64,000 nt of DNA from an uncultured Methanobrevibacter sp. (lineage in GTDB: Archaea; Methanobacteriota; Methanobacteria; Methanobacteriales; Methanobacteriaceae), in contig NZ_CAMVPN010000002.1 of NCBI RefSeq assembly GCF_947169325.1, positions 1-64,000 on the forward strand, read 5' to 3'. The notes under the pieces were generated by a model that worked only from the letters and a program-made list of their open reading frames with translations, made no database searches and was not told where the DNA came from. The translations under genes and the position numbers were made by a program. This document shows, one piece after another, positions 2,546 through 9,511 of the stretch. The stretch's first letter is position 1; every line of letters starts with the position of its first letter.

Positions 2546-2821
2546 TTATTTTTCAAACATTTCTATTATTTTTCTTGCATATTTCCTGTCCTGTTCTTTT
2601 ACCTTTTCGCTCAGCTCATCATAATCGACCCAATAGCTTTCCCATCTTGCCAATCTTTCCTTTTGTGTTTCAATGAATTGCACATCCTCTTGAGAGAGGC
2701 TGTTAACATCTATAAGTTCAATCAACTTTTCTATTGATTCATGTACTGATTTTGACCAATGAATCCATTGCTCATGTTCAAGTGCAGACAATTCTTCTAA
2801 AAGTTCATCCCTATCGCTCAT
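2546..2821 (-). CDS. Small phage-type protein (LEHEQWxxW / YxELSExxKExDR pattern)
   Basis: 91 residues, helical and acidic. It carries an N-terminal LSALEHEQWIHWSK segment and a C-terminal YDELSEKVKEQDRKYA segment. I know this pair of motifs from short proteins of bacterial phages and mobile regions; I know no biochemical function. The start at 2821 (ATG) is chosen because GGGTGA lies 5 bases upstream; a GTG at 2830 is the alternative. The larger neighbour upstream on the same strand (2910-5999) also looks phage-derived. Confidence 0.6.
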   Translation of the reverse strand: MSDRDELLEELSALEHEQWIHWSKSVHESIEKLIELIDVNSLSQEDVQFIETQKERLARWESYWVDYDELSEKVKEQDRKYARKIIEMFEK

Positions 2822-2909
2822 GTCAATCACCCTTAGGATATGTTGAATAGTATGTAACTTTCAATATTTAACAGTTTTCGCAAATGCATGGCGTTAATGT
2901 CAGGCAAAA

Positions 2910-5900
2910 TCAGCTTCCGCCTTCATCATCGACAATCTTTATTGGAGATATTGCGAATTTTGCATTTCCGTTGATGGAACTTTTAATCAAATCGAATATG
3001 CTTGTATCAGCCTCCCTGAAGTAGGTCTTGATGAATTTGGAATTCTTGAGGATGCTTTTGAGCTTTTCCTCATCGACCCCTTCGGCCCCTTGGATATTTA
3101 GATACTCGATGTCCTGATTTAGGATATCATACTTTTCCCAAATCTTGAATTCGCCTAAGCCGATTTCCTTTTTGATCTGCTTGTTGAGCCAATTTTTAGG
3201 AATGCCTATTGATAGTGAGCACTGGTACTGAAGGATGCTTGGAATCAATACCCCAAGTTCGAAAATCAATGCGAAATCCTTGAAGGTTTCATCACCGTCC
3301 TTGCCTTTAAGATACCAGTCATATATCTCATCAAGAGTGATTCCTGCCTTTTTCGCCAGTTTGGTTCCTGTGGTTTTTCTTTTGCTTATCTCTTCTGCAA
3401 TGATTTTGAACCTGCCACCCAATACAAACCTTGTGATTTTCTCCTCCTTTTCAAGGTATTCCTCTTTAGTGAGGTTGGCATTTTTCATTGCTATCCTTTT
3501 GGACTTCTTGGCGATGGTGGCCTTCACAAAGAGATGTATCTTAAGATTGAGATATGCTTCGCTGAAATACTTGAACTTGTCATTGCCGTAGTTGCCCAGC
3601 TTGTAGTAGTAGTTAAGCTCCTCTTCGGTAATCCTTGAGTTCTTCAGGGCTTTGGCATATGGCTTATTTTCGAATTCCATCAGGAAATTCTTGAGGAGGT
3701 TCGGAACGACATAATCCTCATACAGCTCTGAAATCCTTGCAAACTCTTCAAATCCGCTTTTTCCAAGGTTGATGAATTCCTCGATTGTCTTTAAAGGAAT
3801 GTCATATGTGTCTGAGACTTCCTGTTTTGATTTCAAATCCTTAAATCCGTCGATAATCAGCTTGATTTCAAGCTGGTCGTTTTTCTTTTTGAAATCCCAA
3901 AATAGGTCATATTCTATATGCCTCAGCCATTTGCTGACAATCGTATTTGAAAGGCCAATGCTTCTTGCCGCATCGGGCATGTTTTTTCCCTCATATCTTG
4001 CTTTCATGTACTTTTCCATCAAAAGCTCTGTAGTCTTTAGGTAAAACTGTGTTGGATGATTTGTTGACATGTACATGTCCTGGTCTTTTATATACCATTC
4101 ATTGAACTCCTTCTGGCTAATCTCGCATTTCTGGATGGCATTGTAGAAATCATTGTCTATTAGAAGCTTTGGAAATAGCCTTTTGCGGTTTTCCTCATAT
4201 TCCTGATCAAATCTGGCATGGAAGTTGCTTCTCTCCTTTCGGCTGCTGTTGTACAATTCAAGGAATTCCTTCGGACTGACGCCTGCTGAGTAAATGGCCT
4301 CTTCCTTGCTTTTGTCTTCCTTAAGGGCATTTATGATTTTTCCCCTTTTTATCAGACTTGAAGTGATTTTCGCGTTTTCCTCTTCGAATTCCAGAAGCAG
4401 GTCCATGTCTGTGTGCTTGCTCCATGACTTTACCATGTCCTTTGAGATGTTCATCCTCTTGAGTATTTCAGGTTTTGAAAATCCCCTTTGGCGGTAATTG
4501 AGATATTTTTCCATGAGGATTTTTGTTGTCTTCATGTAGAACTGCGAATAGTCAATCTCACCTGTGTAATACCATCTGTAGAATTCATCACGGGTAATCT
4601 TGCTTATTCTGATTGCGCTGTTCAGGTTGCTTTTGCCCAGATGCTTGATGAATGTCTTCTGTCTTTTTTGGGTATATTCAGCATCGAATGTCTTGTGAAA
4701 CCCATCACCTGACTTTTTGGACATGTAGTAGATTCTGTCAAATTCCTTCTGGCTGATGCCGATTGATTTCAATGCATCCTTGAGGCTTTTGTTTTTCTTG
4801 ATTTCCTTTATGATGAGGTCCTTTTTGATGTCGTTGGTCATCTTCATGAAATCCTCGCTCATGAAATGGGTCTGCCAGAACTCTAACATCTCATCTGAAA
4901 GCTCAAGCTTTTGGCGGATTTTATCCTCATTTATGTTCCTTTTTCTATAGTTGAAATAGCTCTTTATCTGAAGCTCATTGTACATTATGAATGCTTCGTT
5001 CAGCTCTCCGGCGATGAATTCATCCTTCCTATGGTTGAACCATTCCCTGATGTTCAAATCATCCATGGATGAATCCTTCATGCTTTTCTTGATGTTTTCG
5101 CTTTTGAGGAGATTTTCCTCGAAGTCCCTTTCAAGCTTCAGGTTTACAAGCCTGTAGAACTCGCAGTAGTTTTTCTGCTTCACTCCTCCTTTCCAGTACT
5201 CCAAAGTGTTTTTGACCTCTCCTGCTGAAATCCTGTCATTGTAAAACTGCATGAGGAGTACGCTGATGTCAATATATTCGTTGATTTCATCCATCATACG
5301 TTGGAACATCTCGTCGTTTATGTGATATGTCTCGCCCTTTTTCATGATGACATTATCCTTTGAGAGTTCCATCAAAAATGAAATTGCCTCGCTTTCATCC
5401 AATCCGTAATTGACAAGATCTCTTTTTGTAAATCCTGAATCCTCAAATGAATTCTTGATTGACAGAAGGAGGTTTGCATTGTCGATTTTTCCATTGCAGA
5501 TATTGCAGAGATTTGACGATGCATCCTCATTTGGCTTGCCGCAGATGATGCAGTTGTCAAAGTGGAATTCCCTGTGCTGCGGTTTTTTGTAATCGGGAAT
5601 GTCAATGTACCTTTCGCTTTCGCAGAAGTCCCTGAAATATTTTTTGGAAATGTAGTACAGTCTTTTGTGAAGGTCAAATGCCACATTCCTCTCTTCCTGG
5701 GTGTTTTTGTAGTTCTTATGGATTTTGTTTCTTAGGTTATATGCCTCCTGAAGCTTGTTTTTGAAGATGTATGATATGACTCCCTGCCTGTAGAGATTGT
5801 CAATCTTTTTGTAGAATGAAATCATATGGCTTTCAAGTTTCTTTTTTGACAGCCTATACATGTCATTGACTATTGTTTCCAAAAACAGTGTTGCATCTGC

Positions 5901-5999
5901 TGTCACTGCCCTTGGGGAGTTCAAAACATCATCTTCAAGTTTGACTCCAATATCGTAGAGTTCCTGATTAAAGCTTTTCAAAAAATCAAAGTTTGACAT
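2910..5999 (-). CDS. Large multi-module HTH-like protein with zinc ribbon
   Basis: 1,029 residues, no signal peptide or membrane helix. Residues 1-125 are helical and contain an R90...H94 pattern (LRNKIH) reminiscent of DUF4145/HEPN regions. A zinc ribbon follows at C150, C153, C165, C168. From about 260 to 920 the protein is built of short helix-turn-helix-like modules such as DALKSIGISQKEFDRIY (408-424), KRMNISKDMVKSW (514-526), RSIGLSNTIVSKWL (679-692) and KKAGITLDEIYDWYLKG (883-899), each followed by a GDxxFxxF-like stretch. These resemble the HTH of phage terminase small subunits. Modules recur in an A-B-C order (about 405/459/503, then 563/616/668). It probably binds nucleic acid; the function is unknown. 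GAGGTG precedes the start. Confidence 0.7.
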   Translation of the reverse strand: MSNFDFLKSFNQELYDIGVKLEDDVLNSPRAVTADATLFLETIVNDMYRLSKKKLESHMISFYKKIDNLYRQGVISYIFKNKLQEAYNLRNKIHKNYKNTQEERNVAFDLHKRLYYISKKYFRDFCESERYIDIPDYKKPQHREFHFDNCIICGKPNEDASSNLCNICNGKIDNANLLLSIKNSFEDSGFTKRDLVNYGLDESEAISFLMELSKDNVIMKKGETYHINDEMFQRMMDEINEYIDISVLLMQFYNDRISAGEVKNTLEYWKGGVKQKNYCEFYRLVNLKLERDFEENLLKSENIKKSMKDSSMDDLNIREWFNHRKDEFIAGELNEAFIMYNELQIKSYFNYRKRNINEDKIRQKLELSDEMLEFWQTHFMSEDFMKMTNDIKKDLIIKEIKKNKSLKDALKSIGISQKEFDRIYYMSKKSGDGFHKTFDAEYTQKRQKTFIKHLGKSNLNSAIRISKITRDEFYRWYYTGEIDYSQFYMKTTKILMEKYLNYRQRGFSKPEILKRMNISKDMVKSWSKHTDMDLLLEFEEENAKITSSLIKRGKIINALKEDKSKEEAIYSAGVSPKEFLELYNSSRKERSNFHARFDQEYEENRKRLFPKLLIDNDFYNAIQKCEISQKEFNEWYIKDQDMYMSTNHPTQFYLKTTELLMEKYMKARYEGKNMPDAARSIGLSNTIVSKWLRHIEYDLFWDFKKKNDQLEIKLIIDGFKDLKSKQEVSDTYDIPLKTIEEFINLGKSGFEEFARISELYEDYVVPNLLKNFLMEFENKPYAKALKNSRITEEELNYYYKLGNYGNDKFKYFSEAYLNLKIHLFVKATIAKKSKRIAMKNANLTKEEYLEKEEKITRFVLGGRFKIIAEEISKRKTTGTKLAKKAGITLDEIYDWYLKGKDGDETFKDFALIFELGVLIPSILQYQCSLSIGIPKNWLNKQIKKEIGLGEFKIWEKYDILNQDIEYLNIQGAEGVDEEKLKSILKNSKFIKTYFREADTSIFDLIKSSINGNAKFAISPIKIVDDEGGS

Positions 6000-6202
6000 T
6001 TTTCATAACACCTCATTTTTATTTGATTTTAAAAATCCTCTTGTTGAGGTATTAATGTCTATTAAAAGAAGTAGTATATAAGTATTTAAATGATTAAAAG
6101 CATTATTGCTTTTTGTTTGTAATTTTACAAGTTTAAATCAATATTTACTTTTGCGTGTAAATTATAGGTGGAGGGTTTGCTGCGGTGGCGAAAAAATATA
6201 AT

Positions 6203-6274: not shown

Positions 6275-6721
6275 ATGGATGACGAAAGTACACAGAACCT
6301 GGTGAAGAATTCCCCGTTTATTGCTTGGATTCACAACATATCTCTAAATCAACAGAAATACATGAAATCCAAGATAGAAGATTTGGATTTCGACCACAAC
6401 ATGAGATACATAATATTCATCTACGACAATCCAAACTGTTCACAGGAAGACATTGTAAACATGTTCGGCCAAAGCAAGGGAAACATTGCCAAGGTCTTGA
6501 GAAAATTCGAGGACGAAGGATACATCAAAAGAGAAATAAATCCCGAAAACAGGAGAAAATATATATTGAACACTACCGAAAAGGGCAGTGAAATAGTTCC
6601 AAGGATAAGGCAGATTTCAAAGGACTGGGAAGCCGAAGTCGGAATAACAGATGAAGACAATGAGCTGAAAGAGAGAATCATTGAAATTGCAATCAATGGA
6701 ATGAAACTTATTGAGGGATAA
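6275..6721 (+). CDS. MarR-family transcriptional regulator
   Basis: 148 residues with the MarR winged-helix layout: a dimerising helix at the N-terminus, the HTH (about 45-80, NCSQEDIVNMFGQSKGNIAKVLRKFEDEGYI), the wing with KREINPENRRKYILN, and a C-terminal helical dimer region. It probably represses its own operon and the two exporters that follow, the first only 3 bases downstream, and should respond to a small molecule. The start is fixed by AGGTGAT at 6265-6271. Confidence 0.88.
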   Translation: MDDESTQNLVKNSPFIAWIHNISLNQQKYMKSKIEDLDFDHNMRYIIFIYDNPNCSQEDIVNMFGQSKGNIAKVLRKFEDEGYIKREINPENRRKYILNTTEKGSEIVPRIRQISKDWEAEVGITDEDNELKERIIEIAINGMKLIEG

Positions 6722-6724
6722 ATC

Positions 6725-8104
6725 ATGAAATTCGATTTGGAAACTGCAGTCGTCTTTGTATCTTTCATCACATCGTTTTTTGCAGTATTCCTATCAGCGG
6801 GAATCGTATTGGGAGTGCCTTCAATTGCAAGTGAGTTTGAAATGAACAATGTCATTCAGAACTGGATTCCAACAATAGCTCTACTTGTCATTGCAGTCTT
6901 TACTCTTCCGGCAGGACAGATTTCAGGAAAATACGGAGTTAAAAAATCCCTGATTGTCGGAGTGGTCATTTTCATTCTGGCTTCAATCGGTGCCTGCCTT
7001 TCATTTTCAACAGAATCCTTTTTGCTTTTCAGAGTAATGCAGGGCATTGGAATTGCATTTTTGAACGTGTCTGCAATGGCAATGGTCGTGCAAGCAGTAA
7101 ACCCAAAAAACAGAGGAAAAGCACTGGGTTTCACAGTGACCGGAATATATCTGGCAGGATCACTATCACCGGTATTGTGCGGATTTCTGGTCTATAACCT
7201 CGGATGGAGGTCCATGTTCTACTTTGTGATTCCATTTCTGGTTTTATGTTTGGCCTTGATGATATGGAAAATACCTGGAGAGTGGAAAACATACGAAAAC
7301 AGCAAAATCGATTCTATAGGATACATCCTATATGGAATAGGAATTCTGCTTTTCATCTACGGATTTACCAATCTGATTAACTTTTACGGCATGATGTGTG
7401 TAGCTTCAGGATTCATATTGCTGGCTGTCTTTTCATATTGGGAGCTTAAAGCTGACAGTCCTGCATTCAACATGAAACTGTTCAAGAACATGAAGTTCAC
7501 ATCATCAAACATTGCGGCATTGTGCAGCTATCTTGCAATTGCAGCAATAACAACCATTCTCAACTACCATTTCCAATACGTCAGAGGATGGAATGCACAG
7601 ATGTCCGGCATTATGCTGATAATAACTCCCATCATCATGGCAATAATGGCACCTAATGCCGGAAAGCTTTCAGACAAAATCCATCCGCAGAAGCTGGCCG
7701 CAATAGGAATGAGCATAGCGACTGTGACATTGGTGATACTGATATTTTTGGATGCTAACACCTCCATTTATCTGATTGTAATTGCAATGGTTCTGCAGGG
7801 CATCGGAATGGGACTGTTTACAACACCGAACACCAATGCAATAATGAGTTCAGTTCCGCCAAATGAAACCCCAAACGCATCAGCGGCACAGTCTGCAATG
7901 AGAACAATAGGTCAGACAATGAGTTTAGGTCTTCTAACTTTAATTTTTGCTTGGATAATGGGCAGCTTAAAGCTAATGCCGGAATATGCCAACATGATTG
8001 TTCAGGCATCACAGCTGATTTGTCTTATTTGTACCATAATCTGCATAACAGCAATATTCGCCTCATTAGTAGGCATTCAATCTAAAGATTCATTTAATAA
8101 TTAA
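6725..8104 (+). CDS. MFS drug-type exporter, DHA2-like (copy 1)
   Basis: 459 residues with about 14 hydrophobic helices, the layout of the DHA2 (14-helix, H+-coupled) exporters. A motif-A-like loop GQISGKYGVKKS is near residues 59-70 and a motif-C-like segment GSLSPVLCGF near 145. It probably exports a toxic organic compound under control of the MarR gene 3 bases upstream. It is a close paralogue of the following gene, with the same opening residues (MKFDLET) and the same length within four residues; see findings. Confidence 0.88.
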   Translation: MKFDLETAVVFVSFITSFFAVFLSAGIVLGVPSIASEFEMNNVIQNWIPTIALLVIAVFTLPAGQISGKYGVKKSLIVGVVIFILASIGACLSFSTESFLLFRVMQGIGIAFLNVSAMAMVVQAVNPKNRGKALGFTVTGIYLAGSLSPVLCGFLVYNLGWRSMFYFVIPFLVLCLALMIWKIPGEWKTYENSKIDSIGYILYGIGILLFIYGFTNLINFYGMMCVASGFILLAVFSYWELKADSPAFNMKLFKNMKFTSSNIAALCSYLAIAAITTILNYHFQYVRGWNAQMSGIMLIITPIIMAIMAPNAGKLSDKIHPQKLAAIGMSIATVTLVILIFLDANTSIYLIVIAMVLQGIGMGLFTTPNTNAIMSSVPPNETPNASAAQSAMRTIGQTMSLGLLTLIFAWIMGSLKLMPEYANMIVQASQLICLICTIICITAIFASLVGIQSKDSFNN

Positions 8105-8119
8105 AAAGAGGGATAAATT

Positions 8120-9511
8120 ATGAAATTCGATTTGGAAACAGTTGTAATATTTGTATCATTTATTACATCATTTTTTGCAGTGTTTTTATCCAATGGGATA
8201 ATTATAGGAGTCCCGGCCATTGCACAGGAATTTGCAATGAACAACGTTATTCAAAACTGGGTTCCTACAATATTTTTCCTTGTGGTTGCTGTGTTTACAG
8301 TTCCCGCAGGGCAGATTTCAGGAAAGTTCGGCGTTAAGAAATCATTGCTGATGGGAGTCATAGTATATCTGATAGCATCAATCGGAGCATGCCTTTCATT
8401 TTCAACAGAGTCATTTTTAATCTTCAGAATGCTTCAGGGAGCAGGAGTCGCATTCCTGAACGTATCTGCCATGGCAATGGTAGTTCATGCAGTAAAACCG
8501 CAAAACAGAGGAAAGGCACTTGGATTTACTGTAACAGGAGTGTATCTTGCAACATCTCTTTCACCTGTGCTGTGCGGATTTCTGGTGCATAATCTCGGCT
8601 GGAGATCAATGTTTTACTTTGTGATTCCGTTTTTAGTTATATGCATCCTATTGATGGTATTAAAGATACCTGGCGAATGGAAAACATATGAAAAGGACAA
8701 AATCGACAAGATAGGTTCAATCATATATGGGCTTGGAATTCTTGCATTCATCTACGGTTTTACAACATTGACAACCACAAACGGACTGATTCTAACAGTT
8801 GCGGGATTAATCCTGCTGGTAATATTCGGAGCATATGAATTAAGGCAAACATCCCCAGTGTTTAACATGAACCTTTTCAAGAACAGGAAGTTCACATCAT
8901 CAAACATTGCAGCTTTATGCAGCTACATTGCAGTTATGGTTGTTACAACAATCCTAAATTACCATTTCCAGTATGTAAGAGGATGGGACGCCCAGATGGC
9001 AGGACTGATACTGATCATCACTCCAATCATCATGGCAATAATGGCCCCTAATGCAGGAAAGCTGTCAGACAAGATTCATCCGCAGAAGCTTGCCGCAATC
9101 GGTATGGGAATAGCTACTGTGGCATTGCTGATATTGACATTCCTTACAAAGGACACTCCATTGTATCTTGTAGTATTGGCAATGGTTCTTCAGGGTTTCG
9201 GCATGGGACTCTTCTCAAGTCCGAACATGAATGCAATCATGAGCTCAGTCCCGCCTAAGGATGCTCCGACCGCATCAGCTTCACAGGCAACAATGAGAAC
9301 AATAGGCCAGACAATGAGCCTGGGTCTTCTCACACTGATATTTGCTTGGGTAATGGGCAGTCTGAAACTTGCTCCTCAATACGCATCCATGATTGTGCAG
9401 GCATCACAGACAATCTGTGCAATATGTACTGCTGCATGCATAATTGCAGTATTCGCTTCACTTGTGGGAATCAAATCAAGCGACAAGTTCAATACTGATA
9501 GACCTAACTAA
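8120..9511 (+). CDS. MFS drug-type exporter, DHA2-like (copy 2)
   Basis: 463 residues and co-linear with copy 1 over its whole length. Long blocks are identical, for example the GKALGFTVTG and IMAIMAPNAGKLSDKIHPQKLAAIGM regions. Differences cluster in the membrane segments and loops (around 200-260), which could alter substrate range. It is 15 bases behind copy 1 and preceded only by a weak GGGAT, so it is probably translated from the same mRNA. A hairpin terminator follows. Confidence 0.88.
   Translation: MKFDLETVVIFVSFITSFFAVFLSNGIIIGVPAIAQEFAMNNVIQNWVPTIFFLVVAVFTVPAGQISGKFGVKKSLLMGVIVYLIASIGACLSFSTESFLIFRMLQGAGVAFLNVSAMAMVVHAVKPQNRGKALGFTVTGVYLATSLSPVLCGFLVHNLGWRSMFYFVIPFLVICILLMVLKIPGEWKTYEKDKIDKIGSIIYGLGILAFIYGFTTLTTTNGLILTVAGLILLVIFGAYELRQTSPVFNMNLFKNRKFTSSNIAALCSYIAVMVVTTILNYHFQYVRGWDAQMAGLILIITPIIMAIMAPNAGKLSDKIHPQKLAAIGMGIATVALLILTFLTKDTPLYLVVLAMVLQGFGMGLFSSPNMNAIMSSVPPKDAPTASASQATMRTIGQTMSLGLLTLIFAWVMGSLKLAPQYASMIVQASQTICAICTAACIIAVFASLVGIKSSDKFNTDRPN

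Follow-up and report, generated by a model that had tools for sequence, protein, structure and literature searches.

A HEPN-headed protein with a zinc ribbon, a winged helix and 14 HTH-like units, encoded by an accessory chromosomal gene of Methanobrevibacter

The gene discussed here lies in a window of 64,000 nucleotides (the whole stretch of DNA analysed) from an uncultured Methanobrevibacter sp. Its protein consists of a HEPN-type head, a zinc ribbon, a winged helix and 14 HTH-like three-helix units, and the gene is an accessory chromosomal gene of Methanobrevibacter, present in some gut methanogens only. Our preferred reading, held tentatively, is of a conflict (defence) protein that senses nucleic acids and acts through a HEPN effector, its binding of nucleic acids, its action as an RNase and its part in defence being inferred. 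An earlier sequence-only reading had described a zinc ribbon followed by tandem HTH-like modules, and this overall observation stands, as does the placing of the ORF, which was exact, with the strand (minus) left unstated. The features are listed in Table 1.

Table 1. Features of the gene and its surroundings, with positions in the window
Feature	Position	Strand	Residues	Basis or remark
Whole gene	2910..5999	minus		intact ORF, ATG start, 1029 aa
TATA-like box CTTATATACTAC, candidate	6071..6082	minus		~70-80 nt 5' of ATG, read from sequence
Ribosome-binding-like site GAGGTG, candidate	6009-6014	minus		read from sequence
Presence/absence block	2554..6200	.		missing in G048 (L141): 2553 joined to 6201, ~12 bp between
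HEPN/DUF4145-like helical bundle	5616..5999	minus	1-128	Pfam DUF4145 and Foldseek
HEPN-type R...H motif, R90-N-K-I-H94	5718..5732	minus	90-94	alignment of 32 homologues
Zinc ribbon C150-x2-C153 ... C165-x2-C168	5484..5567	minus	145-172	
Winged helix-like domain, two-strand wing	5316..5483	minus	173-228	model secondary structure
Repeat unit M1	5136..5315	minus	229-288	most diverged; helix triplet in model, no profile match to other modules
Module C1 (M2)	4968..5135	minus	289-344	profiles, class models
Module A1 (M3)	4821..4967	minus	345-393	profiles, class models, high-confidence fragment model
Module B1 (M4)	4668..4820	minus	394-444	profiles, class models, fragment model
Module C2 (M5)	4521..4667	minus	445-493	profiles, class models, fragment model
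Extra A-B-C cycle (M6-M7-M8)	4026..4520	minus	494-658	only in long form; long/short alignment gap
Module A3 (M9)	3861..4025	minus	659-713	profiles, class models
Diverged modules M10-M14, D-type	3045..3860	minus	714-985	profiles, class models, model
C-terminal tail, low confidence	2913..3044	minus	986-1029	pLDDT <50 from residue 995

The N-terminus had been taken as simply helical. Helical it is, but it is also a HEPN-type domain: the N-terminal bundle of the full-chain model has the HEPN helical-bundle fold, matching the HEPN structure 2hsb (Foldseek, prob 1.00, TM 0.68 on target, rmsd 4.2), and all 32 homologues aligned keep R90 and H94. DUF4145 (PF13643) is a member of the HEPN superfamily (PMC3710099), and the Pfam DUF4145 match has 20.0 bits (E 7e-4), below the gathering score of 23.1. 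The head thus resembles the DUF4145-like family in its 2hsb-type bundle and in the invariant R, mostly followed by N, and then the invariant H, and differs from it in the sub-threshold Pfam score and in the R-H spacing, which is x3 in 30 of the homologues and x4 in two. The usual HEPN RNase motif is Rx4-6H (PMC3710099), and the prevalence of Rx3H makes the putative HEPN catalysis uncertain. Fusions of DUF4145 with zinc ribbons and sigma-HTH are on record (PMC3710099), but a 14-unit HTH solenoid fused to HEPN is absent from the survey table of that paper. In two ORFs that comprise a HEPN head only (L039:8032-9241 and L040:6493-7430) the motif's H has been lost; both adjoin a DNA cytosine methylase-like gene, and that of L039 also adjoins a type II restriction enzyme gene.

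The zinc ribbon is well founded, all four cysteines of the CxxC/CxxC pattern (C150, C153, C165 and C168) being invariant in 32 of 32 homologues. The winged-helix stretch of the full model has GntR-type matches (Foldseek, prob 0.93-0.98), and the zinc ribbon and winged-helix stretch are found again in proteins of the BrxD/BrxHI cassettes discussed below.

For the repeats, residues 229-985 were cut into 14 units (M1-M14), and family profiles of these units were aligned pairwise. Nineteen of the 91 module pairs match at 60% probability or above in at least one direction, the maximum for column-permuted modules being 25% in 364 comparisons. Class A comprises M3, M6 and M9 (96-99% for the neighbours M3/M6 and M6/M9), class B M4 and M7 (99%), and class C M5 and M8 (98%), with M2 joining through M2/M5 (64%); M4, M5, M11 and M13 also match one another. 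The array is thus one of tandem HTH repeats, in that its three-helix units align with each other in sequence, as the sequence-only reading had supposed. Class models, built from the long group only with the short paralogues left out of the building, give a module order of C-A-B-C-A-B-C-A-x-D-x-D for the long proteins and C-A-B-C-A-D-D-x-D for most short paralogues, two short forms having an extra D unit, so that a complete A-B-C cycle separates the long form from the short. The fixed three-module order seen earlier was recovered by both profile matches and class models, and the recurring motifs quoted for it (residues 331, 480 and 647) prove to mark the step from a C to an A module in three cycles that follow one another. 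The earlier estimate of about ten modules was too low, as the AlphaFold2 model has 14 plus one winged helix. The solenoid would have grown by duplication of the A-B-C cycle. Our literature search found no tandem-HTH archaeal proteins.

The whole-chain AlphaFold2 model (18 sequences, mean pLDDT 83.7, pTM 0.39) has a five-helix N-terminal bundle, a zinc ribbon, a two-strand winged helix and then, past residue 229, 14 long-short-medium helix triplets, with a long helix leading from the end of each unit into the beginning of the one after it. Structure prediction thus gives the repeated three-helix HTH-like folds that had been expected. A three-module fragment (residues 335-485) is modelled with pLDDT 93 and pTM 0.83, and its PDB matches are mostly HTH regulators (TetR, AraC/ToxT, TrpR and phBC6A51), all weak (Foldseek, prob <=0.28). 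The three-helix HTH unit is shared with AraC/ToxT, TetR and the terminase-like phBC6A51 (2ao9), and in AraC two HTHs are joined by a long helix; the differences are the 14 units in series and the weak fold scores. Full-length Foldseek matches were set aside as mostly unspecific helical solenoids, only the local matches to HEPN, GntR and small DNA-binding proteins being highly probable, and PDB sequence matches to the designed 'CAP repeat' 8vd6 and to a homeodomain, which are short, weak and in repetitive or HTH sequence, were taken as chance. After the disordered stretch near the C-terminus there is a conserved -GK ending in eight long-form proteins, and -GN in two more.

There are 13 near-full-length orthologues (994-1057 aa, 45-58% identity, frame intact) and two truncated copies; the orthologues are all from Methanobrevibacter, with records mostly from ruminant guts, and homologues beyond this genome, which had been predicted, are found in other Methanobacteriaceae. 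The systematic search for relatives was within the order, and for contigs an alignment-based scan gave 19 loci where a single-protein query gave no match. The genomes are mostly metagenome-assembled and fragmented, our own having 145 contigs and being 93% complete. Among 67 genomes of the genus the long form is found in 16, at a single conserved chromosomal locus whose flanking genes (PNPOx-like, uracil-DNA glycosylase, MarR and MFS) are common to loci with and without it, and tblastn found no gene remnant at 16 loci that lack the gene. Compared in pairs, copies of the gene are on average 54% identical, whereas the MarR, c3, PNPOx, c13 and MFS neighbours in the same genomes reach 69-81%; the c9 neighbour is as diverged as the gene (mean 51%).

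We found no conserved operon partner of the long form at the orthologue loci. Csx1 genes lie near four of these loci (L050, L051, L053 and L055) but also at two loci without the gene (L143 and L148), and the association is thus not specific. This Csx1-like CARF-HEPN gene recurs at the locus whether or not the HEPN-HTH gene is there, and is degraded in L053. Just 3' of the gene, and nearly all inside the presence/absence block, is a 94-aa ORF (2546-2830, minus) with a very weak match to DUF7701 (E 0.0025), a homologue of which has another position within this locus in L045 and L141. On the other side two similar tandem MFS transporter genes (6725-8104 and 8120-9511) lie beside a MarR-type regulator (6275-6721).

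There is also a family of short paralogues that lack exactly one A-B-C cycle. DUF1232 has 26 full-length matches in 139 genomes. Short HEPN-HTH genes adjoin 12 of them, and at least 8 are next to large zinc-ribbon/HTH proteins, which for the most part belong to BrxD cassettes; three further matches are in neighbourhoods that we call DndD/PbeC-like by resemblance to L123, and our own genome has no DUF1232 match. Near the short paralogues are Cas10, Csx1, DrmB, BrxL, PglZ and type I and type IV restriction genes. Enrichment in defence islands looked strong but failed against a control of 20 random 19-kb loci from family-carrying genomes: defence genes are near 11 of 20 short paralogues and 6 of 20 random loci, a difference that is not significant (Fisher p = 0.20) with a query set taken from the short loci and favouring them if anything, so that the defence setting of the short paralogues is only suggestive.

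The family profile also finds large proteins of 700-1700 aa in several genera, with the same ~50-aa HTH module and the zinc-ribbon/winged-helix pair. Seven loci of such proteins (L121, L122, L123, L126, L129, L131 and L136) are beside BrxD ATPase and BrxHI helicase genes, which were profile-tested in L122 and L129 (E 1e-73 to 1e-77 for BrxD and 1e-148 to 1e-152 for BrxHI) and recognised by shared motifs in the other five; a PRK00809-type protein and a DUF1232 protein are often present as well. The large proteins, which are from Methanobacteriaceae and one other family and several of which share the DUF1232 neighbour with the short HEPN paralogues, differ from ours in that linkers keep their modules apart, several carry TGFAWV-type repeats at the C-terminus, no HEPN domain was seen in them and they sit in an ATPase/helicase cassette. 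BrxD is present in 15 of the 139 family genomes (one a weak, degraded match), in 6 genera. There is no BrxD match in our own genome as assembled, and neither BrxD nor BrxHI among the neighbours of the gene, which is thus not itself part of a BREX or Shango cassette. The BrxD/BrxHI dyad is part of type 2 BREX, and a TerB/helicase/ATPase trio makes up Shango, SngABC (PMC12839542, PMC10250203). The SngB and SngC models also match the BrxHI/BrxD-type pair, and the cassettes of the relatives encode the ATPase/helicase pair of both systems; however our gene is solo, and no TerB protein was identified in those cassettes.

Close relatives are beside or inside likely antiviral gene sets, so that the protein may be an unusual antiviral sensor. 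Its HEPN domain would be a putative RNase and dimerisation head, and the chain of zinc ribbon, winged helix and HTH units would dock, within the cell, on an invading element's DNA or RNA/protein complex, docking serving to position or activate the head, which would then cut RNA. The analysis shows the architecture, the repeat order and the invariant R, H and Cys residues. In favour of this reading are the HEPN fold match, the invariant R and H, the patchy presence at a fixed site with an exact empty site, divergence faster than that of most neighbours, the recurrence of homologous sensor modules in BrxD/BrxHI-cassette proteins, the DUF1232 genes beside both short paralogues and those proteins, and the defence genes near short paralogues. 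Against it are the non-significant excess of such defence genes over random loci, the position of the long form among housekeeping genes, the Csx1 genes that are there even when the locus is empty, the lack of a BrxD cassette or DUF1232 in our own genome, the net charge near zero, the Rx3H spacing, the equal divergence of c9 and the finding of no defence-system match by PADLOC. It is rather doubtful that there is here a previously undescribed solo or two-gene methanogen antiviral system, in which an HTH 'ruler', its number of cycles varying, would detect the nucleic acid of an invader and so turn on the HEPN RNase, and which exchanges sensor modules in evolution with the BrxD/BrxHI/DUF1232 cassette. 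Antiviral defence in gut methanogens is poorly known, and a defence role, if true, would add to their conflict systems a HEPN protein whose HTH sensor is long and modular, and would link it to that cassette. The gain and loss of whole A-B-C cycles is a natural series for asking whether HTH arrays measure DNA length.

The main rival, which we consider unlikely, is that the HTH units are a repurposed protein-contact solenoid and the HEPN head is non-catalytic, serving in dimerisation or RNA binding, so that the protein organises a complex and reads no DNA. The net charge of the protein is +8, that of long forms is usually +7 to +30 per ~1030 aa (+3 to +30 covers most of them, with extremes of -23 and +83), and most short paralogues are net acidic, while the third helices of the units have no net basic charge. 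These values are in keeping with a scaffold, as are the Rx3H spacing, the predicted fusion of the units into one continuous solenoid through shared long helices, and the many alpha-solenoids (CRM1, importins), all of low probability, among the top Foldseek matches of the whole model. If so it would be a DNA-binding fold turned solenoid. However the matches of the three-module fragment are mostly to HTH regulators, though weak, the zinc ribbon and winged helix are kept, and the relatives from BrxD cassettes have this HTH module as separate units between long linkers. The charges bear also on the sequence-only reading of an architectural protein that coats DNA or reads its spacing, with every HTH unit touching DNA at a fixed step. 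Repetition of HTH folds in a fixed order and the shift in copy number by a whole A-B-C cycle fit such a protein, but the modules differ in mean net charge, between about -4 and +6 (the highest value, +6.3, is that of M5), and the near-neutral array and non-basic third helices count against simple coating, while still compatible with specific contacts. As the ~50-residue units also share long helices, so that their recognition helices may not all face one duplex, and as most Methanobrevibacter genomes lack the gene, a strange pattern for an architectural protein, we find coating at a set spacing improbable.

Regulation of neighbouring genes is suggested by the winged helix and HTH units and by the monocistronic gene adjoining a MarR gene in the window, but we think it more improbable still, since the adjacent genes vary among orthologues and the flanking genes stay at the empty site. 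The modules had also been likened to phage terminase small subunits. The likeness holds at the general HTH level and goes no further, phBC6A51 being one weak match among many to TetR and AraC; Sf6_terminase weakly matches two BrxD-cassette relatives. There is no terminase family among the PHROG or Pfam matches of the protein, and its neighbours are housekeeping genes with no large-subunit gene adjacent. No match was found in viral contigs, phage records or plasmids and no capsid or terminase genes were seen nearby, and with a conserved chromosomal locus and a distribution that contradicts a phage origin, a terminase-related phage or provirus protein is most improbable.

The BrxD/BrxHI cassette, of which we found no description in our literature search, is patchy in Methanobacteriales, being seen at the seven loci above and at L184, L185 and L186, though at L185 no helicase was seen beside BrxD. 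The cassette has in addition a zinc-ribbon/HTH protein of 700-2200 aa, usually a PRK00809-type protein and often DUF1232; the cassette resembles Shango and type 2 BREX, with no TerB or methylase gene seen. The C-terminal halves of the large proteins of L121, L122, L129 and L131 have tandem TGFAWVxKxGxxWxYxRxIxGKxIxI...NIxxLHxKVxxxxxxWGV repeats, which are AP2/integrase-type DNA-binding-like.
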